Below are positions 21,856 to 35,508 of a stretch of DNA of 64,000 nucleotides, piece after piece. This stretch comes from Chitinivibrionales bacterium. GTDB lineage: Bacteria > Fibrobacterota > Chitinivibrionia > Chitinivibrionales > WJKA01. Position numbers and translations under genes: made by a program. The notes under the pieces were generated by a model that worked only from the letters and a program-made list of their open reading frames with translations, was not told the origin of the DNA and ran no database searches. The stretch covers positions 1 through 64,000 of the forward strand of contig WJLZ01000167.1 of assembly GCA_014728215.1 (NCBI GenBank). The letters run 5' to 3'. Each line of letters begins with the position of its first letter. Position 1 is the stretch's first letter.

Positions 21856-23298
21856 ATGAAACAGGCAGTAATCTCCACCAGAAATAAAGACGCCGTGGCG
21901 ATTCTTAAATCGTGTCTTCAGAAAGAATATACCGCCGACTTTTTAGAAAATCCCAACGATTGTCTTGATCGGCTTCAGAAACAACGATATGAACTCCTGT
22001 TTATCGATATCCTTGCCCTGAGAAAAATGAGTATCGAATACGCTCAAGCAAATAATTACCGAAAACTGCTCAATCCCTTCTGGAAAACCGCTCCCTCTCT
22101 TGAGATAATTATTCTCTGCTCTCAGGAAAATATCCGGAAAGCCGTTGATGCCGTGCGGGCAGGAGCAAGCAATTACCTGACTTTTCCGCTCGATAAGAAA
22201 GAGGCGGAATATGTTATCGAAACCACCCTCGAGGCGACCCGTGCGCAGTCGGAACTCGATTATTTCCGTGACCAATTCTGGGATTCCGACTCATTAAGAA
22301 TTGTCAGCACCAAAAATTCGACCATGCGCACAGTCTTCAGTAAGGTCAAATCGGTTGCCCCCTCGGCAACGACTGTCTTGATTACCGGAGAAACAGGGAC
22401 AGGTAAGGGATTGATATCAAAGCTGATACACTCAAATAGCCCTCGAAATAGCAAACCCTTTATCAGTGTCCATTGCGGGGCGATACCCGAAAATCTTATT
22501 GAAAGCGAACTCTTTGGCCATGAACGAGGAGCATTTACCGGCGCGGTAAAACGAAAACTCGGAAAATTTGAAATTGCCGGTGATGGCACCATTTTTCTGG
22601 ATGAGATCGGCACTATGCCGCTTTCTGCACAAATCAAACTCCTGCAGGTATTGCAAGAGAAGCATTTTCAGCGAGTTGGAGGTGAAACTGATATCTATAC
22701 CAGTGCCCGGATTATCGCAGCATCTAACGCCAATCTCACATCAATGATTGAAAAGGGTGAATTCAGAAGGGACCTTTACTACCGGCTGAATGTCTTTCCT
22801 ATCGAACTTCCACCCCTCTGCGAACGCCTTGAGGATATTCCATCACTTGCCAATGATTTTCTTTTTCGGCTGAATACGACCCATTCAAAAAATATTAAAA
22901 GCATTCATCCTGAAGTGCTTGATGCATTTTATTGCTATTCCTGGCCGGGCAATATCCGGGAAATGGAAAACCTGATGGAACGGGCCTATCTCATTGAAAA
23001 ATCATCAATTCTGACACCAGAAAGCTTTCCGGGCGAATTATTCACCAGCCAAAAGACTGTTGCCGAAATCCCGTTGATTACCTCCCTCACCCTCGCCGAA
23101 CTTCGAAAAACCAGCTATGCCGATATCGAAAGAAATTACCTGAAAGGGCTTCTGGCAAAAAATCAGGGAAGAATCGACAGCACCGCTCGCGCAGCAGGAA
23201 TCACGACCAGACAACTCCACAAATTACTCACCAAACACGCTATCCGAAAAGAAGAATTCAAAAAATCGGAATTCAGCCGACAGGTTCAAGAACAATGA
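21856..23298 (+). CDS. Sigma-54-dependent transcriptional activator with degenerate receiver
   Basis: The 480-residue protein has three parts. Residues 1-125 resemble a response-regulator receiver: Asp51 is in the phosphorylation position, but the N-terminal acidic pair is absent (VISTRNK) and the lysine of the usual TKP motif is replaced (LTFPLDK). Residues 150-385 are the AAA+ domain with Walker A GETGTGKG (178-185), the sigma-54 contact loop GAFTGA (225-230) and Walker B TIFLDE. A Fis-type helix-turn-helix (RIDSTARAAGITTRQLHKLLTKH) ends the protein. No sensor kinase is adjacent. A strong sigma-54 promoter match lies 112 bases downstream, so the next genes are likely targets. Confidence 0.9.
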   Translation: MKQAVISTRNKDAVAILKSCLQKEYTADFLENPNDCLDRLQKQRYELLFIDILALRKMSIEYAQANNYRKLLNPFWKTAPSLEIIILCSQENIRKAVDAVRAGASNYLTFPLDKKEAEYVIETTLEATRAQSELDYFRDQFWDSDSLRIVSTKNSTMRTVFSKVKSVAPSATTVLITGETGTGKGLISKLIHSNSPRNSKPFISVHCGAIPENLIESELFGHERGAFTGAVKRKLGKFEIAGDGTIFLDEIGTMPLSAQIKLLQVLQEKHFQRVGGETDIYTSARIIAASNANLTSMIEKGEFRRDLYYRLNVFPIELPPLCERLEDIPSLANDFLFRLNTTHSKNIKSIHPEVLDAFYCYSWPGNIREMENLMERAYLIEKSSILTPESFPGELFTSQKTVAEIPLITSLTLAELRKTSYADIERNYLKGLLAKNQGRIDSTARAAGITTRQLHKLLTKHAIRKEEFKKSEFSRQVQEQ

Positions 23299-23409
23299 GT
23301 TCCGAAATAATGAAAAATGCGACACCAGCGTTCCTAAAATAAGCGATAATGCATGCTCTCCCTGAACAGAGCTGCTATTCCTGCCAAAATCTACCTATCC
23401 AGACCACGT

Positions 23410-23425
23410 TGGCATACTGATTGCA
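23410..23425 (+). promoter_or_regulatory. Sigma-54 promoter candidate
   Basis: TGGCAT-ACTGA-TTGCA matches the -24/-12 consensus TGGCAC-N5-TTGCA at all but one position, with correct GG to GC spacing. It lies between the sigma-54 activator gene and the small acidic protein, about 260 bases ahead of the latter's ATG. The rest of 23299-23687 holds no gene that I can support. Confidence 0.65.
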
Positions 23426-23687
23426 TTATTCCTTCAGAAAATTGAACCGGACCAGATCATATCCCGGAAACATTTATTAACGGCGAAACATCATTTAACT
23501 AACAAAAAAGCAGTAACTTACATTTTTAGGCCAAGCACACTGAGCGTTTGATATCAATCAAATAAAGCATTGATATTACTGAAGATAAATAAATGTTCAC
23601 TGTAAAACCGGTGGATTTGGTTTTCCGCCAATCACCAATGGTCGTAATCCATTGAAAATATTTAAATTAGAAAGGAAGGGTAGATCT

Positions 23688-23837
23688 ATGGCCTATGGAG
23701 AGCTTCGATTCGAGGATGAAGACGATGGTGCCGCCTTTCATGAAGAATGTGAATTTTGTGGTCGAATCAGCGGTCATGACCCCGATTGTGTAATGACCGA
23801 CAAATATGATGCGTTTGATGAAATTGAAGATGTTTGA
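23688..23837 (+). CDS. Very small acidic Cys-containing protein
   Basis: The 49-residue product has a strongly acidic composition (EDEDDG, DAFDEIEDV) and a CEFCGRISGHDPDC segment with three cysteines, which might bind a metal or form a thioether/disulfide. GAAAGGAAGGG precedes the ATG at 23688. The stop is TGA; the same frame stays open beyond it with another acidic stretch (23844 to about 23990) before a strong terminator. It is the first gene behind the sigma-54 promoter candidate and just ahead of the ATP-grasp/M20 fusion. I do not recognise a family; it could be a substrate, carrier or small regulator. Confidence 0.6.
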   Translation: MAYGELRFEDEDDGAAFHEECEFCGRISGHDPDCVMTDKYDAFDEIEDV

Positions 23838-24003
23838 TGCTCTATGCCAACAATTGGAATGCAGGCGGAAAATAACGGTGAAGCAATTGTCCTTGATTCC
23901 GACAGTGATCCGGCTGTAAGCGATAAGCAAGAAGATAAAACATTGGATCAAGAGGAAGAGTCGGACGAATATTCATTTGAAAAGATACGATTAGTTTTCG
24001 CAA

Positions 24004-24040
24004 GCGGGGGCAGCCCTTTACTGTCTCCGCATTTTTTTTG
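24004..24040 (+). terminator. Strong intrinsic terminator
   Basis: GCGGGGGCAG (24004-24013) pairs fully, with two wobble pairs, with CTGTCTCCGC (24021-24030) and is followed by ATTTTTTTTG. It should end the short transcript from the sigma-54 promoter before the ATP-grasp gene, perhaps with read-through. Confidence 0.85.
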
Positions 24041-24206
24041 CTTTTGTTGCCATTCATTGTGTGCTGTTGTTTCAAAGAAAATTATACGTAACAGTTGTTT
24101 TTTCTAGTATTTTCACATTTTCAATGTGGGATATGAAAGTTATTCCTCTTGCAATTCCTTTATTGACCCGGAGGCCAAGATTCCACTCCATCGAGAAAGG
24201 TGAGAA

Positions 24207-26387
24207 GTGAAGATAGCTGTAATATTCAATAAAACCGCTGTACAGGCTGATGATGTCATTGAGATATTCGGTCCCCAGACAAAAGAGCGTTATAATCCGA
24301 AAACGGTGGAGAAAGTTGCTACCGCCCTTGAAAAGTGTGGACATAATGTGCGGGTAATTGAGGGCAATATTAACGTCGCAGAGGAGCTTCGCAATTTCAT
24401 GCCCCGGGTTATGGAAGGCGAAAAACCGGGTATGGTATTCAATATGGCCTATGGCATACAGGGCCAGAGCAGATACACCCATATTCCGGCGATGCTTGAA
24501 ATGCTTGGCGTACCCTATGTCGGCTCCGGACCCCAGGCCCATGCGGTGGCACTCGATAAGGTCATGAGTAAGATTGTTTTTGAGCAGCACAATCTTCCCA
24601 CACCGCGCTACTGGCTTTTTTCATCGGCCAATGAAAATCTTGCCCGTGAGGTACTCTTTCCTGCTATTGTGAAACCGAAGATGGAAGCGGTTTCCATGGG
24701 AATTGCAGTAGTGCATTCTACCGGGGAACTGCTTGAGGCCGTAATAAACATCACACAGACGTTCAGTCAACAGGCTCTGGTTGAAGAGTTTATTGCCGGA
24801 AGAGAGTTTGCCGTAGGACTTTTAGGCAACGGACCAGATCTTGAAACATTTCCTGTTGTCGAATTTGATTTTGGCGGCATTAAAGAAGGTATTCAGAGTC
24901 ATGATGCAAAGATGATGGCACCGGTATCGAAGGTTTGTCCGGCAAAAATACCCGAAGAACTCAATAATGAACTGAAGCGAATTGCCAAAGAAGCCTTTAA
25001 TGCCCTTGGCACACTCGATTTTGCCCGAATCGATTTCCGGGTAGATGGATCGAACAAGATATACATTCTTGAGATAAATTCGATGGCCAGTCTTGGTATG
25101 ACCGGTTCCTATGTCTGTTCGGCAAAGGCAAATGGGTATTCATTCGAAATCCTGGTTAACCGTATTGTGGAGGTTGCCACAACCCGGTATTTTGGAAATC
25201 GTTTCATTACTGCGCCGGAAGAGGAAGAACTCCGGGCACGGGATGAAGCCATGCCGCTTCGAGTTCGGCTAAGGAGTCATGTGCGGGGAAACATCCCGGC
25301 TATTATCGACTATGTAAAACTCATGACCAGAATGGATACTTATGTCAATGATACCGAGGGGATAAATTCATTGGGAAACTGGATATCGGCCCGAATGAAA
25401 AATCTTGGATTCAACCGTCAGGTATTCCCCCAGACCGAAGCAGGAAATATTCTTTATTTTACCAACCATGAAGACCAACACAATGATATCCTGCTTATAA
25501 GTCATCTCGATACGATCTATACCTATTCGGAACGGGTCCCCTACAGGGAAGTACAGGGACGGATCTACGGTTCGGGTATTGCCGAGAGCAAAGGTGGTCT
25601 GGCAGTCATGCTCGGAGCATTGCAGGCGCTCCGGTTTACCCGCTGGCTGAAAAAAGTGCGATGCGCGGTTCTCTGCATTACCGATGATTCCCTGGGAGGT
25701 AAATTCGGCGGCAAATTGATTACCGACTTCTCGAAAAAATCAAAATATACCGTTGGTTTGAAATCTGGAGGAAAGGCTGGAGGTATTATAACTTCATGCA
25801 GCGGCAGTGCCAAATACCAGATTGTTCTTTCTCATGCCCGTAGTCCCGAAGAATCGAAACAGACCGACATTATCGGTGTGACGGCACATAAAATCCTTGC
25901 ATGGCAAAAACTCGATTCGGAAAAAGACGGGCTCATGGTTCGGCCTGTATCACTCGAAGCGAAAACGGGGTTCGGCCTCTCAACCGATTATGCAAAGACT
26001 GCTCTGGAAGTTCGATTCAAAGATGAGAAACAGGTGGATATCCTCAATGAAGAAATCAGAAAGATTGCCGGAAAAAGCATCGATTCAAAAGTCCGGATTA
26101 GAGTAAAAAGAAGCATCTACTGCCCCGCATTCAATGAAAACCAGCATGTGAACGACTTTTACGGCAAGGTAAAAGTAATGGCCGAAAAACTGGAAGTACG
26201 GGCCGCATCGATACACCGGATAACATCATCGGCCATCGGGTATGTTGTTCCCGAGAGCCGTGCACTGGAAGGACTCGGGCCCGCAGGAGGCGATCAGCGT
26301 TCTCCTACCGAATATATAATCAGGGACAGCTTACTGGACCGTGCTACCTTGCTTGCCTTGATCATCCGGATGTCGATAAAAGATTAA
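24207..26387 (+). CDS. DdlA-like ATP-grasp ligase fused to M20-peptidase-like domain
   Basis: The 726-residue protein has two halves. Residues 1-335 are a D-Ala-D-Ala ligase-like ATP-grasp: PYVGSGPQAHAVALDK (103-118), VKPKMEAVSMGI (155-166), VEEFIAGREF (192-201), RIDFR and the metal-binding EIN (289-291). Residues about 355-726 follow the M20 plan: SHLDT with His433 and Asp435, GSGIAESKGG, TDDSLGG and GPAGGDQRSPTEY. Usual M20 ligands are altered: the Asp of GxxDxKGG is Glu460, the Glu-Glu pair is Asp494-Ser495, and the late His is Arg698, so peptidase activity is doubtful. Start is GTG after GAAAGGTGAGA. GGT- and FGase-like genes follow almost without gap. It may join an amino acid to a peptide or acid substrate. 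Confidence 0.8.
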   Translation: MKIAVIFNKTAVQADDVIEIFGPQTKERYNPKTVEKVATALEKCGHNVRVIEGNINVAEELRNFMPRVMEGEKPGMVFNMAYGIQGQSRYTHIPAMLEMLGVPYVGSGPQAHAVALDKVMSKIVFEQHNLPTPRYWLFSSANENLAREVLFPAIVKPKMEAVSMGIAVVHSTGELLEAVINITQTFSQQALVEEFIAGREFAVGLLGNGPDLETFPVVEFDFGGIKEGIQSHDAKMMAPVSKVCPAKIPEELNNELKRIAKEAFNALGTLDFARIDFRVDGSNKIYILEINSMASLGMTGSYVCSAKANGYSFEILVNRIVEVATTRYFGNRFITAPEEEELRARDEAMPLRVRLRSHVRGNIPAIIDYVKLMTRMDTYVNDTEGINSLGNWISARMKNLGFNRQVFPQTEAGNILYFTNHEDQHNDILLISHLDTIYTYSERVPYREVQGRIYGSGIAESKGGLAVMLGALQALRFTRWLKKVRCAVLCITDDSLGGKFGGKLITDFSKKSKYTVGLKSGGKAGGIITSCSGSAKYQIVLSHARSPEESKQTDIIGVTAHKILAWQKLDSEKDGLMVRPVSLEAKTGFGLSTDYAKTALEVRFKDEKQVDILNEEIRKIAGKSIDSKVRIRVKRSIYCPAFNENQHVNDFYGKVKVMAEKLEVRAASIHRITSSAIGYVVPESRALEGLGPAGGDQRSPTEYIIRDSLLDRATLLALIIRMSIKD

Positions 26388-26413
26388 CCGTGCCACCAAA
26401 AAGGAGCTTTTCC

Positions 26414-28006
26414 ATGCATGGCTCGTCGCAAAAATTCGCTGTTTCAAAAAACGGTATGGTTTCTACGGCCTTTCCTTTAGCCACCGAAGCCGGTGTTGCA
26501 ATGTTGAGGGCCGGTGGCAATGCCATTGATGCCGCCTGTGCTGCAGCCTGGACCCTGGGTGTATGCGAACCCCAGGCAAGCGGCCTCGGCGGTCAAACCA
26601 TGATGCTTCTTTATGGTGGTCGAAAAGTAATTGCTCTGGACGGTTCCTCCCGGGCTCCATCACTGACCCATGTCAATGCAATTTACCGGGATGACCGGAC
26701 ATTGGGATACAGGGCATCAACCGTACCCAGCACCCCGGCAACGCTCGGATATGCACATCTGCGCTACGGAACATTGCCCCGGGAGCAGATTATGGAACCG
26801 GCAATTGCCGCTGCCGCCCACGGCTACACGATCACTCCCCTGCAGCACCGTCTCCAGCATGAACAACTAGAAAACTTCAATATAATCGAATCCCGCTCGG
26901 GCGCCGATTATTTCCTTGATAATGGCACCGCCTATGCAGAAGGCGCGCTCTTTCGTCAACCCGACCTGGCGGTGCTCCTTAAGACATTATCAATAAAGGG
27001 AATAGAAGAATTCTACAATGGCACGACAGCCAAACAGATCGATGCTGATATGCGGGAAAACGGCGGACTACTCCGGTATGATGATCTTGCCCTTATTCCC
27101 TTGCCTCTTCTCAGAACACCACTCAAGTGCACATTCAGAAAACACCGGGTCTATTCCATGCCCCCGCCGGGGGCAGGACGGTCCCTTCTGTTTGCACTTC
27201 TGATGATCGATGCTATTCCGGCAAAACTGCTGAGAGATAAGGACCGCCGAAGGCTTCATATATTCGCCGAAGTCTTCCGAAAAACCCTGCTCGAAAGAGC
27301 CGACAGACCCTTTGATCCCAATTTCTATCCTCAACATCACGAAAAAGATATGCTCGACCGCTCATATTCACGTGAGAGTATTACCGAGCTCATAAATGCT
27401 GTCGATAGAACTATTTTACCATCCCTTATTACCGAAGATGAAATTTCGGGCGAAACAACGCATCTTTCGGTTATTGACCACAATGGATGGGCGGTCAGCC
27501 TGACACAATCAATCGAACGGGTATACGGCAGCAAAGCCGCCGCCGGAGGCCTGGGCTTCCTTTATAATAACTATCTTTCCGATTTTGAATACAAACTTCC
27601 GGAAAATCCCTATTATCTTCGCCCCAATTCCGTTCCCTGGGCATCAGTAGCACCTTCACTGATATTCAAAAAAGGAGAATTATGGATGGCTCTTGGATCA
27701 CCCGGCAGCGGGCGGATCTTCTCTACACTGGCCCAGTTCCTGGTCCATGTCATCGATGATAAAATGTCGCTCTTCGATGCCATGAATGCTCCGAGGATCC
27801 ATTGCTCACTGGGAGGACGGGTCAGCATCGAACGAGAACGGTTCCCGCAAGGCGTTGTCGATTTCCTTGAAGCAAAAGGGTACCGTATCGATCTGAGAGA
27901 TCCCTATGCTTTTTACCTCGGTGCGGTTCATGCTGTTGTAATGTCGGAAAATGAATTCGAGGGAGTAGCGGAAATCCGGCGAGATGGAACGGCAGGCGGA
28001 ATATAA
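26414..28006 (+). CDS. Gamma-glutamyltranspeptidase-like Ntn hydrolase
   Basis: The 530-residue protein is of the GGT family, which cleaves or transfers gamma-glutamyl groups after self-processing at an internal Thr. The processing and nucleophile site GETTHLSV is present with Thr348 as the likely new N-terminus, plus AAAWTLGVCEPQASGLGGQ near 43-61, PPPGAGRS near 250, and GSPGSGRI near the end. No signal peptide is visible, unlike E. coli Ggt, so it may act in the cytoplasm with its neighbours. I chose the ATG at 26414 after AAGGAG; an in-frame GTG at 26390 is less likely. It sits 26 bases after the ATP-grasp fusion. Confidence 0.85.
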   Translation: MHGSSQKFAVSKNGMVSTAFPLATEAGVAMLRAGGNAIDAACAAAWTLGVCEPQASGLGGQTMMLLYGGRKVIALDGSSRAPSLTHVNAIYRDDRTLGYRASTVPSTPATLGYAHLRYGTLPREQIMEPAIAAAAHGYTITPLQHRLQHEQLENFNIIESRSGADYFLDNGTAYAEGALFRQPDLAVLLKTLSIKGIEEFYNGTTAKQIDADMRENGGLLRYDDLALIPLPLLRTPLKCTFRKHRVYSMPPPGAGRSLLFALLMIDAIPAKLLRDKDRRRLHIFAEVFRKTLLERADRPFDPNFYPQHHEKDMLDRSYSRESITELINAVDRTILPSLITEDEISGETTHLSVIDHNGWAVSLTQSIERVYGSKAAAGGLGFLYNNYLSDFEYKLPENPYYLRPNSVPWASVAPSLIFKKGELWMALGSPGSGRIFSTLAQFLVHVIDDKMSLFDAMNAPRIHCSLGGRVSIERERFPQGVVDFLEAKGYRIDLRDPYAFYLGAVHAVVMSENEFEGVAEIRRDGTAGGI

Positions 28007-28008
28007 CA

Positions 28009-28782
28009 ATGAAACTCCCTGTCCTGATTACCATCCCCCATGGTGGCACATCTGTACCACCCGAAATTAACGATCATATTGCACTTACACCGGAGGATAT
28101 TCTCAAAGATGGAGACGCCTTTACCCGGGAGATATACGACCTGCGCAATAATGCGGTCGATACAATTATCTCGGAAACGGCCCGTGCGATTATCGACGTC
28201 AATCGTGCTCCCGATGATTTTCCACCGGGGAACCCTGATGGAGTTCTGAAAAGCGTTACCTGTTATAATAAATCGGTGTATTTGCCCGGAAAAACACCCG
28301 AAAGCAAAACTGCAGACCTGCTGCTGAAACGGTATTATGCCTCATTTCACCGAAAAATCAACAATTCTCTTGCAAGAAATAAGGAATTAAAGCTCGGATT
28401 GGACTGCCATTCAATGGCGGCATTCGCTCCTCCGATATCCCCGGACAGACAAAGTCCCCGACCCGCAATATGCCTTGGCAATCGCAGAGGTCAAAGCTGC
28501 CCTTTTCCCCTTGTGGAAAAACTCAGAGAGCGCCTTTCCGATGCCTTTGCTGTTTCGAAAAATGATATACGAATTAACGATCCCTTTGCAGGTGGCTATA
28601 TTATCGGGACCTATGGGAACGAACCAATACCCTGGATTCAAATAGAACTCAACAGAAATTTATACATGACATTGCCTTCAAAGGAAGGCGAAAAAATTCT
28701 CCAGGATAATACAAGAATTCAAGACGTTAACCGAAAACTTAACCAGGGCTTACAAAGCTTTTTCCGCTCCTGCGGACTTTAA
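28009..28782 (+). CDS. N-formylglutamate amidohydrolase-like protein
   Basis: The 257-residue protein matches the FGase family (hydrolysis of N-formylglutamate or related N-acyl amino acids by a zinc site): TIPHGGTSVPPE near residue 9, AIIDVNRAPDDF, GLDCHSMA near 129, and a late IQIELNRNLYM. The His and Glu residues expected to bind zinc are present. It starts two bases after the GGT stop and so is surely co-translated with it. In histidine degradation this enzyme acts on formylglutamate, but no hut gene is near; in this setting the substrate is more likely a gamma-glutamyl or acylated amino acid compound. Confidence 0.85.
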   Translation: MKLPVLITIPHGGTSVPPEINDHIALTPEDILKDGDAFTREIYDLRNNAVDTIISETARAIIDVNRAPDDFPPGNPDGVLKSVTCYNKSVYLPGKTPESKTADLLLKRYYASFHRKINNSLARNKELKLGLDCHSMAAFAPPISPDRQSPRPAICLGNRRGQSCPFPLVEKLRERLSDAFAVSKNDIRINDPFAGGYIIGTYGNEPIPWIQIELNRNLYMTLPSKEGEKILQDNTRIQDVNRKLNQGLQSFFRSCGL

Positions 28783-28786
28783 CAAA

Positions 28787-28960
28787 CTATTCCCAAAGAT
28801 CTTCAGCATCATTGACATCGCTGACGATCTCAGCATAACCGTCTTTGGCTCTGTTTTCGAAATCAAGCTCTTCTACATCATCCTCATTAGAGAAATCTTC
28901 CTCGTAATCCTCATGTTCACGAAGAATTTCATCAGCATCATAGGATTCATTCAGCAGCAT
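28787..28960 (-). CDS. Small acidic protein, convergent with the amidohydrolase gene
   Basis: The frame encodes 57 residues starting MLLNESYDADEILREHEDY and ending NDAEDLWE, with nearly 40 percent Asp and Glu and few basic residues. AAGGAG lies eight bases ahead of the ATG, a strong initiation signal. It has no cysteines, unlike the other acidic peptide at 23688, and no signal peptide. It converges on the amidohydrolase gene with four bases between stops. A sigma-54-like promoter occurs about 230 bases upstream. Its role is unknown; a substrate or partner of the adjacent ligase/hydrolase set is an attractive guess. Confidence 0.65.
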   Translation of the reverse strand: MLLNESYDADEILREHEDYEEDFSNEDDVEELDFENRAKDGYAEIVSDVNDAEDLWE

Positions 28961-29483
28961 GCAACCTTCTCCTTAAAACGTTTAAATCAGAACCATTCCT
29001 TCTTATTTTTATAAAAAAGGAATAATTATTTCTTATTTCCTTTCCCCTAGCCAAAGGAAAGTATCTGGCAAAATGGTTAATGGCAGCAAAAATCGCAAGA
29101 CCCATTATCCATTAATTCAGCAAGCTATGTAATTTAATAAAAAATTTTGAAAAATTCATGAAAAATTTCATTTATTTAAAAAAATATCTGCAAATATAAT
29201 GCCTTTTCATTTCTTATCCTACCACCCCTCTTCATCGGTAAAATCATGAGCAATTATCCGCAATTTTTTTGTTTCATTTTTATCATTATTTTTAATCTGG
29301 AGTATTCTTGCACCAATCATTAACTATCAGAGGGGAATACCCCTTTGAGGGGATACGCCCCCGGCTTTCGCCAACCACAGCCTTACAAGAGTGCAACCAC
29401 TCCTTTTTGGTAACCGGCTCGACGGTATTTCAAGAAACCACCGACAGTAAAACAGGATGATTCAAATAATTGTTAAAAAAGAA
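28961..29483. other. Gene-free, AT-rich region upstream of the small acidic gene
   Basis: These 523 bases hold the sigma-54-like site at 29189-29204 and otherwise long A/T runs. A 52-codon open stretch on the minus strand overlaps the start of the acidic gene but lacks a binding site. A short CCCC/GGGG hairpin occurs near 29340. Nothing else is recognisable. Confidence 0.4.
29189..29204 (-). promoter_or_regulatory. Sigma-54-like promoter candidate
   Basis: On the minus strand AGGCAT-TATAT-TTGCA has the invariant GG and GC at the right spacing and a perfect TTGCA. It points toward the small acidic gene at 28787..28960 and leaves a leader of about 230 bases, much like the plus-strand site at 23410. 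Confidence 0.45.
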
Positions 29484-30700
29484 TCAAGTGCTTGATATAT
29501 ATGTTGGATAGGAAGAATAATTCAACAATGAAACCGGCGTTGCTTTCTGTGCATACGGCCAGCTATGTTCCGAAGGAAGGAGTCCTTTGGTATAGCACTT
29601 TTTGAGCATGGTTCCCAATCCTTCAACATGGAAATACAAGGTGTCTCTCTTTTTCGTTCTTTTGATGAGACTGCTCGGAAATGTCGATATCCCGGTAATT
29701 GATTCCTGACCGCCGTTTACGCAAAGCGTTAAAGGAGTCGCCGCTTCAATTCCGCAGAGGGTCGGTTTATCATTGCGAACAGCATCAATCGTCTGCAGCA
29801 CCTTTTCATAAGGGTCATCCATGGGAGAGCCGTAACTCTTTGTATTTCCATTATTAAACCGTGCGATCAAATTCTGACTTCCTTCGGCAAAAGTAACCCT
29901 GGCATTTTCAAACTCGAATTCGAACAGGGGCCCAATTTGTTCTTTTGTCGTATGTGATGCATAATGAAGGACTTGCACGCCGGAATCGGTGACACATCGC
30001 AGGGCGGCAGTATCATAATTTTCGATTGGATACGCACGAAACGCCTCGATTTCGATGCTCGATGGAACTGCACTCCTTTCGGTTTGTTTGCCAAGTACAT
30101 AGAGTGAGTTGTGAAGAAAATGAGCGGTGGCATTTTGCACCGGGCTGTCGAGTACCCATTTACCGTCGGGATCTTTCAGCTTTCCCGCCCAGTTGTTTCG
30201 ATGATAATATGATTCCGGCCGGGGCCAGAAAGTCAGGCTTTTAAAGATTTTGGAGCACCGAATACCCCCTTCAGAACATCCTGTTTCAAAGCTTGAATCG
30301 CCCTGCTGAATGACCATTGATAGCCGATTGCCACCAGCTTGCCTGTTCTATCACGAACATTTTTCATTGTCTGGATACCCTGAACAACTCCGCAAATGGG
30401 CTTTTCACAAAGCACATTGCTCCCCTGCTCCAGAGCAAAACAGGTGTGCGGAACATAATATTGGATCGGCGTCGGAATTATCATCAGGTCTACGGATAGA
30501 TTATCATAAAATGCTTCAAAGGAAGAAAAGATTCGAATTCTCCTGTCTTTTAGCTCTTGCAGGCGGATACATTCATTGGGATTGATACTGATCGCGCCGG
30601 CGAAAGTTACCGAACTCACCGTGCGGTCGAGCAATGCGGAAAGAAAGAAATTACTGTAACCGGTAAGCGCTGCAAGACCAACGGAGATATCCTTTCCCAT
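29484..30700 (-). CDS. Gfo/Idh/MocA-family dehydrogenase, frame broken at a slippery heptamer
   Basis: The N-terminal part (154 codons from 30700) has a Rossmann-like start, IPTPIQYYVPHTCFALEQGSNVLCEKPICG, the EKP motif of the family, and GYQWSFSRAIQALK. Its frame reaches TGA at 30233. The C-terminal part continues in the -1 frame from 30239 with SLTFWPRPESYYHRNNWAGK and runs to 29484. Reading both gives about 405 residues, a normal family length. The switch coincides with T-TTA-AAA at 30245-30239, a classic -1 slippery heptamer. It could be programmed frameshifting, a real mutation, or a sequence error. The substrate is probably a sugar or inositol; a cupin gene is translated just ahead. Confidence 0.7.
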
Positions 30701-34874: not shown

Positions 34875-35155
34875 TACAAGGAGAACTGCGACACTGTCGC
34901 CGACCAGTTAAAAGTATTTAGGAATTTTCATCCGGAGATAATCGACTATTCGGCAGCTTCGTCTGCCCGGACAAATGCCGGAAATTTTCTCACAGTCAGC
35001 TCTTCACACCAGGACCAATCATGGTATAATTTAAAGGGGAGCAAAATACCGGATCCACAGCGTTGCATAGGCTATCGACGAATAAAGGACTTGTCATTCT
35101 CGCAACACCGGAAGGTAACAACATTAAAAAGCTGCAGATCGGCTATCAGGAATAG
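34875..35155 (+). pseudogene. Decayed gene remnant beside the RAYT element
   Basis: One forward frame from the RAYT edge reads DTVADQLKVFRNFHPEIIDYS without a start codon; a second frame reads GLVILATPEGNNIKKLQIGYQE and ends in TAG at 35153. Both look like coding sequence and together suggest a gene truncated at its 5' side by the RAYT element and broken by a frameshift. I cannot name the family. Confidence 0.3.
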
Positions 35156-35334
35156 CTGGCCTGCATCTCAGCGGTCATCACATGGGTGGTATGATCATCG
35201 GTATTAAACCAGAAAAGTAATTTATTATTATGAAGGGTGAAACATTCGGCAAGGGATGGCTTTGCAGTACACGGATAAATGCGCTTGTATTTCCGTTTGG
35301 CTTCGCTGATAAGTCTCTGCTGGTGCTTGTTCAT
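35146..35334 (-). CDS. Small hypothetical protein
   Basis: The 62-residue product starts MNKHQQRLISEAKRKYKRIYP and continues with ECFTLHNNKLLFWFNTDDHTTHVM. AAAGGAT precedes the ATG at a good distance, and the composition is that of a compact cytoplasmic protein with a basic helix and a strand pair. I have no function for it. It ends within the remnant described on the other strand. Confidence 0.6.
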   Translation of the reverse strand: MNKHQQRLISEAKRKYKRIYPCTAKPSLAECFTLHNNKLLFWFNTDDHTTHVMTAEMQASYS

Positions 35335-35508
35335 TGCATATCCTTTCTAAACGACTGGAGATACAAATGCAAAAGCAATGCCAATCCAAATATGCGCAAA
35401 TTGAGCTGTAAATGGGCGTTAAAGCGATTAAATGCGCAAGTTTTTCCGGGGCTTGATAGGAAATAAATGCCGGAAAAGAAGAATTGGAGCAATAGAGGGA
35501 GGGTGAAA

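Follow-up and report, generated by a model that had tools for sequence, protein, structure and literature searches.

The window analysed here, a stretch of 64,000 nucleotides from a Chitinivibrionales bacterium (contig WJLZ01000167.1), contains a gene cluster with an activator gene (positions 21856-23298, plus strand). The protein is an enhancer-binding protein (bEBP) of the sigma-54 type composed of a degenerate receiver domain, an AAA+ domain in which the GAFTGA loop and the Walker A and B motifs are present, and a weak Fis-type HTH. With respect to Pfam, the Sigma54_activat domain is matched at 6.6e-68 and HTH_8 at 0.0062, and Response_reg stays below the Pfam cut-off. The gene ends at position 23298 and, after a gap of 111 bases, is followed by site 1, TGGCATACTGATTGCA (23410-23425, plus strand), by a leader of 262 bases (leader 1, 23426-23687, plus strand) and by small gene 1 (23688-23837, plus strand), which encodes an acidic protein of 49 residues (17 D/E versus 3 K/R) with a CxxC-x5-H-x3-C arrangement. 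A second acidic ORF (23844-24107, plus strand) comes next, and a terminator-like hairpin with a T run (24004-24030, plus strand), detected by the terminator scan, sits between small gene 1 and the following ATP-grasp gene. The enzyme genes, all on the plus strand, encode a D-Ala-D-Ala-ligase-like ATP-grasp domain fused to an M20 domain (24207-26387; Pfam and NCBIfam), a member of the gamma-glutamyltranspeptidase family (26390-28006; Pfam, 7.1e-108) and a member of the N-formylglutamate amidohydrolase family (28009-28782; Pfam, 1.6e-44). On the minus strand, small gene 2 (28787-28960) encodes another acidic protein, of 57 residues (24 D/E versus 3 K/R), unrelated to that of small gene 1, and is preceded by a leader of 228 bases (leader 2, 28961-29188) and by site 2, AGGCATTATATTTGCA (29189-29204). 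Still further along, between positions 29484 and 30700, the minus strand has two ORFs of 155 and 277 residues that overlap and look by eye like the frameshifted halves of a single GFO/IDH/MocA-like oxidoreductase.

Site 1 is an exact match to the pattern TGGCAY-N5-TTGCA, with the GG-N10-GC core present inside TGGCAY-N5-TTGCW. The initial annotation had correctly given its sequence, coordinates, strand and spacing, the activator gene just upstream, and a small acidic gene about 230-260 bases after each site, the distances measured to the ATG codons being 262 and 228 bases, both below 300 bases and both to co-oriented starts. A correct-strand N-GGCAY-N5-TTGCW appears in 0.055% of the base shuffles of the intergenic region harbouring site 1. 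Francke et al. 2011 (PMC3162934) regard as probably genuine a site that has the correct orientation and a distance of -50 to 300 bases to a start, and sites 1 and 2 both conform to this rule. A scan of all 229 contigs of the genome (5.0 Mb) counts 80 copies of the exact pattern, the highest number among 61 sampled genomes of the phylum (the next being 41), versus 2 copies for the reversed pattern; as a null the latter is imperfect, codon usage being asymmetric. The stretches of the genome that were fetched had been picked around such sites and are hence biased towards them; they contain 79 sites with a spacing of 5, versus 2 for the spacings 3, 4, 6 and 7 together. For 62 of these 79, a co-oriented start is found within the range of -50 to 300 bases, versus 31 for the mirror image, a count itself raised by divergent gene pairs. 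The genome also possesses rpoN (Sigma54_AID match, 5.0e-12) and, among 26 Pfam matches, about 21 full genes for sigma-54 activators. Taken together, the excess of the motif, its placement relative to genes, rpoN and the set of activators indicate that the pattern owes its frequency to actual use. The genome scan proposed in the initial annotation thus returns sites that are not rare, yet their number is far above chance, and its reservation that the pattern might simply be common by chance does not hold, since the sites mostly occur just ahead of co-oriented genes.

Among 168 phylum genomes, two were found to encode the ATP-grasp/M20 protein, namely the source genome and one relative of the same genus; at 1e-40 it was not found outside this genus within the phylum, and a single scan of genome contigs with this protein, directed at relatives beyond the phylum, yielded only a distant ligase. 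In the relative (locus L005, 9254 bases), the order of the genes, namely epimerase, activator, small gene 1, acidic ORF, ATP-grasp/M20, transpeptidase and amidohydrolase, is the same as here. A sigma-54 site, CGGCACAAATATTGCT, occupies the corresponding position between the activator gene and small gene 1 (L005:3777-3792), where a correct-strand site within the 154 bases separating the two genes has a chance of about 0.00025 by shuffling. Since the intergenic sequences of the two genomes can hardly be aligned and the site is present in both, it has apparently been kept or regained amid changed surroundings, a conservation of position judged from this one relative, the sole other carrier of the cluster. 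The activators are 75% identical, with the GAFTGA loop kept, and the proteins of small gene 1 are 63% identical. The latter protein, which is restricted to this genus among the phylum genomes and has no family in Pfam or NCBIfam, retains its C, C, H and C residues in the relative and possibly binds a metal. No enhancer dyad conserved between the two species was found upstream of site 1; they have in common the 9-mer AGTTCCGAA, which overlaps the stop region of the activator gene, and a shared 9-mer arises in 3% of shuffles.

Judging from these sequence features, site 1 is very probably a sigma-54 (-24/-12) promoter, and the adjacent activator is its likely partner. A sigma-54 promoter accompanied by an adjacent activator is an ordinary arrangement, of a kind already known. 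As in the known promoters of this type with an NtrC-type activator gene next to them, GG and GC are correctly spaced at site 1 and a GAFTGA-loop enhancer-binding protein is encoded alongside, the site lying 111 bases past its gene. The locus differs from these systems by its targets, which are uncharacterised small acidic proteins, and by an activator whose receiver domain is degenerate and next to whose gene no kinase gene was seen. Site 1 and its neighbour offer an activator-promoter pair that is open to experiment, in a cluster not yet characterised.

Receivers of two-component systems are expected to contain an acidic pair, a phospho-acceptor Asp and a conserved Lys. In the activator of both genomes, Asp51 is kept, the acidic pair is absent and Phe110 occupies the place of the expected Lys. 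With these residues missing and Response_reg below its cut-off, the assignment as a two-component response regulator was rejected, and classical regulation by phosphorylation is improbable for the activator. Lacking the acidic pair and the Lys, it probably responds to a ligand or a partner protein instead of a histidine kinase. In NCBIfam, the nearest models, NtrC and the PEP-CTERM regulator, are matched far below their cut-offs. The PEP-CTERM-box response regulator (TIGR02915) comes as the second-best NCBIfam match, at 334.8 bits, but its curated cut-off is 502.6 bits and the phosphorylation residues are missing, so that membership was rejected.

The long leaders had been suggested to hold further control elements or small RNAs. 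However, the distance from site to ATG is 49 bases in the relative versus 262 bases here, which indicates that the long leader of site 1 is not a conserved feature. Neither leader has a match in Rfam and neither folds significantly better than its shuffles (z -0.74 for leader 1, z -1.41 for leader 2), and the idea of a structured or known RNA was abandoned accordingly. Their lengths of 228-262 bases fall within the site-to-start distances of the genome, in about the upper tenth, the starts being chosen heuristically. A repeat or mobile element was likewise discarded for leader 1, the genome containing no second copy of the interval 23299-24206. Leader 1 does contain TTGATATCAATCAA (23548-23561), a perfect palindrome of the CRP/FNR type of which the window has no other exact instance, and the genome encodes two CRP-type regulators clearly above the Pfam cut-off. 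The leader might accordingly be read as a tandem promoter, with a CRP/FNR-type regulator at the palindrome and GATAAA (23584-23589) at class II spacing. This reading is improbable, given that the genome contains 8 exact copies of TTGATATCAATCAA, about as many as base composition predicts (some 7 by our own estimate), that the other copies have no consistent placement relative to promoters, and that the palindrome is absent from the short leader of the relative. The motif not being enriched in the genome, FNR-type control was rejected as an explanation and retained as a lead only.

Downstream of small gene 1, the acidic ORF at 23844-24107 is probably a decayed relative of a very acidic, secreted-looking ORF of the other genome (L005:4047-4370), which consists of a signal sequence followed by a D/E/S-rich tail; the two share the segment VLDSDSDPAVS / LLDSDTDPELS. 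The ORF of the window looks decayed because it is devoid of a signal sequence and extends into the terminator. Between small gene 1 and the ATP-grasp gene, the relative has a perfect inverted repeat of 11 bp (near L005:4397-4428), which the terminator scan does not list because the loop exceeds the permitted length. The position of the hairpin ahead of the ATP-grasp gene suggests that the sigma-54 transcript is probably short, with 24004-24030 as its likely end, and the enzyme genes may be transcribed separately from it.

In an alignment with carboxypeptidase G2, the M20 domain displays IAESKGG in place of IADDKGG and TDDSLGG in place of TDEEKG; these substitutions appear to remove the residues that normally act as general base and metal ligands, and the domain is likely inactive as a peptidase. 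The proximity of small acidic proteins to an ATP-grasp ligase and an M20 domain recalls the LysW/amino-group carrier system, and the C-terminus EDLWE of the small gene 2 protein resembles the EDWGE of LysW. The ligase is here of the D-Ala-D-Ala type, however, the M20 domain looks inactive, the small gene 1 protein has no such C-terminal motif and the small gene 2 protein has no cysteines. Membership was rejected, the CxxC zinc motifs and the C-terminal EDWGE not occurring together and no Pfam match being obtained even at E 10. With the neighbourhood as its basis, a carrier or tagging role of the small proteins is conceivable; the full scheme, in which they would serve as substrates or carriers for the ATP-grasp/pseudo-M20 protein, the gamma-glutamyltranspeptidase and the formylglutamate amidohydrolase in an undescribed tagging or carrier pathway switched by sigma-54 through a phosphorylation-independent activator, is very far from likely.

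Site 2 was also reported correctly as to sequence, coordinates and minus strand, and deviates from TGGCAY-N5-TTGCA by one mismatch, an A for T at the first position that leaves GG-N10-GC intact. A correct-strand N-GGCAY-N5-TTGCW occurs in 0.11% of the base shuffles of its intergenic region, and the A-variant of the motif is found genome-wide in 16 copies versus 2 for its reverse. Within the fetched part of the genome, the A-variant is counted 5 times ahead of a gene, versus 4 times in mirror image. Site 2 may well be a sigma-54 promoter too, a case that we find fairly probable and weaker than that of site 1. A less likely alternative is that, of the two sites, site 1 is the real one: site 2 would resemble the motif by accident, and the AT-rich stretch ahead of small gene 2 would supply a sigma-70 promoter for this gene. 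It would account for the less clear placement of A-variant sites ahead of genes and for the related genes that have no sigma-54 site, and sigma-70-like candidates do exist at 29133-29104 and 29054-29025 on the minus strand. Yet such sigma-70-like matches are no more frequent than in shuffles, a site on that strand and in that region has a chance of about 0.001, and the genome-wide excess of the A-variant speaks against a mere coincidence.

The family that includes the protein of small gene 2 is present in 32 of the 168 phylum genomes, almost all of them from the order of the source genome, and the source genome itself has four copies. Its members (28787-28960 in the window, L126-L145 elsewhere) are acidic proteins of about 60 residues with the succession DADEILRD ... 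RELNFGN ... DLDTTDDLWE, ending in (E/D)DLWE; the family has no match in Pfam, and the copy of the window has none in NCBIfam either. In several of the loci inspected an lpxH-like gene lies alongside, and extra copies are distributed elsewhere. No sigma-54 site occurs within 450 bases upstream of any of 20 other members, all at other loci, and the idea of a sigma-54-regulated family was rejected on this ground. The L005 sequence ends inside small gene 2, short of any counterpart of site 2, but a similar coding end for the C-terminus (GAAGAT...GGGAATAG) stands beside the amidohydrolase gene, which indicates that the neighbourhood of small gene 2 is seemingly old.

This apparent age, together with two sites that face inward around one cluster and are both unlikely by chance, could be taken to mean that the adjacent activator drives both promoters and that both small proteins are produced jointly, which is how the initial annotation had read the symmetry. 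Such a single regulon appears rather doubtful: no common enhancer motif was found in the two upstream regions, the two small proteins are unrelated, the 20 other members of the small gene 2 family have no site, and about 21 activators could serve site 2. The initial interpretation stands for the promoter beside its likely activator, with a site kept in the relative, is conjectural for co-regulation and finds no support for functional leaders. The explanation preferred here, a sigma-54 promoter at site 1 under the adjacent activator and probably another at site 2, is on the whole quite likely. The activator would most likely bind between its own gene and site 1, in response to a ligand or partner protein; the resulting short transcript would extend to the hairpin and include the remnant second ORF along with the gene for the 49-residue protein. 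At site 2, sigma-54 would probably bind and drive the 57-residue protein, with any of the numerous activators as a candidate. Transcription from the sites, the pairing of activator and promoter and the nature of the signal are all inferred from DNA and protein sequences.

Beyond the cluster, the use of sigma-54 by this genome is unusually heavy and, more than the two sites, would merit a dedicated investigation. Among the few papers retrieved on sigma-54 in the relatives of Fibrobacter, none was relevant. The large sigma-54 set is prominent on two contigs (C117 and C185; loci L048-L049 and L062-L072). Inspected by eye at their N-termini, the products encoded behind the sites include Hsp20-like, ClpB-like, ribosome-hibernation-like, ferritin-like, hemerythrin-like and glycogen-debranching-like proteins, BON and CBS domain proteins, flagellin and ammonium-transporter proteins. 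These genes look largely devoted to stress, storage and the envelope, which suggests a stress or dormancy regulon. Within the window, a further exact sigma-54 site (35368-35383, minus strand) lies 33 bases before an ORF for a basic protein of 62 residues (35146-35334).
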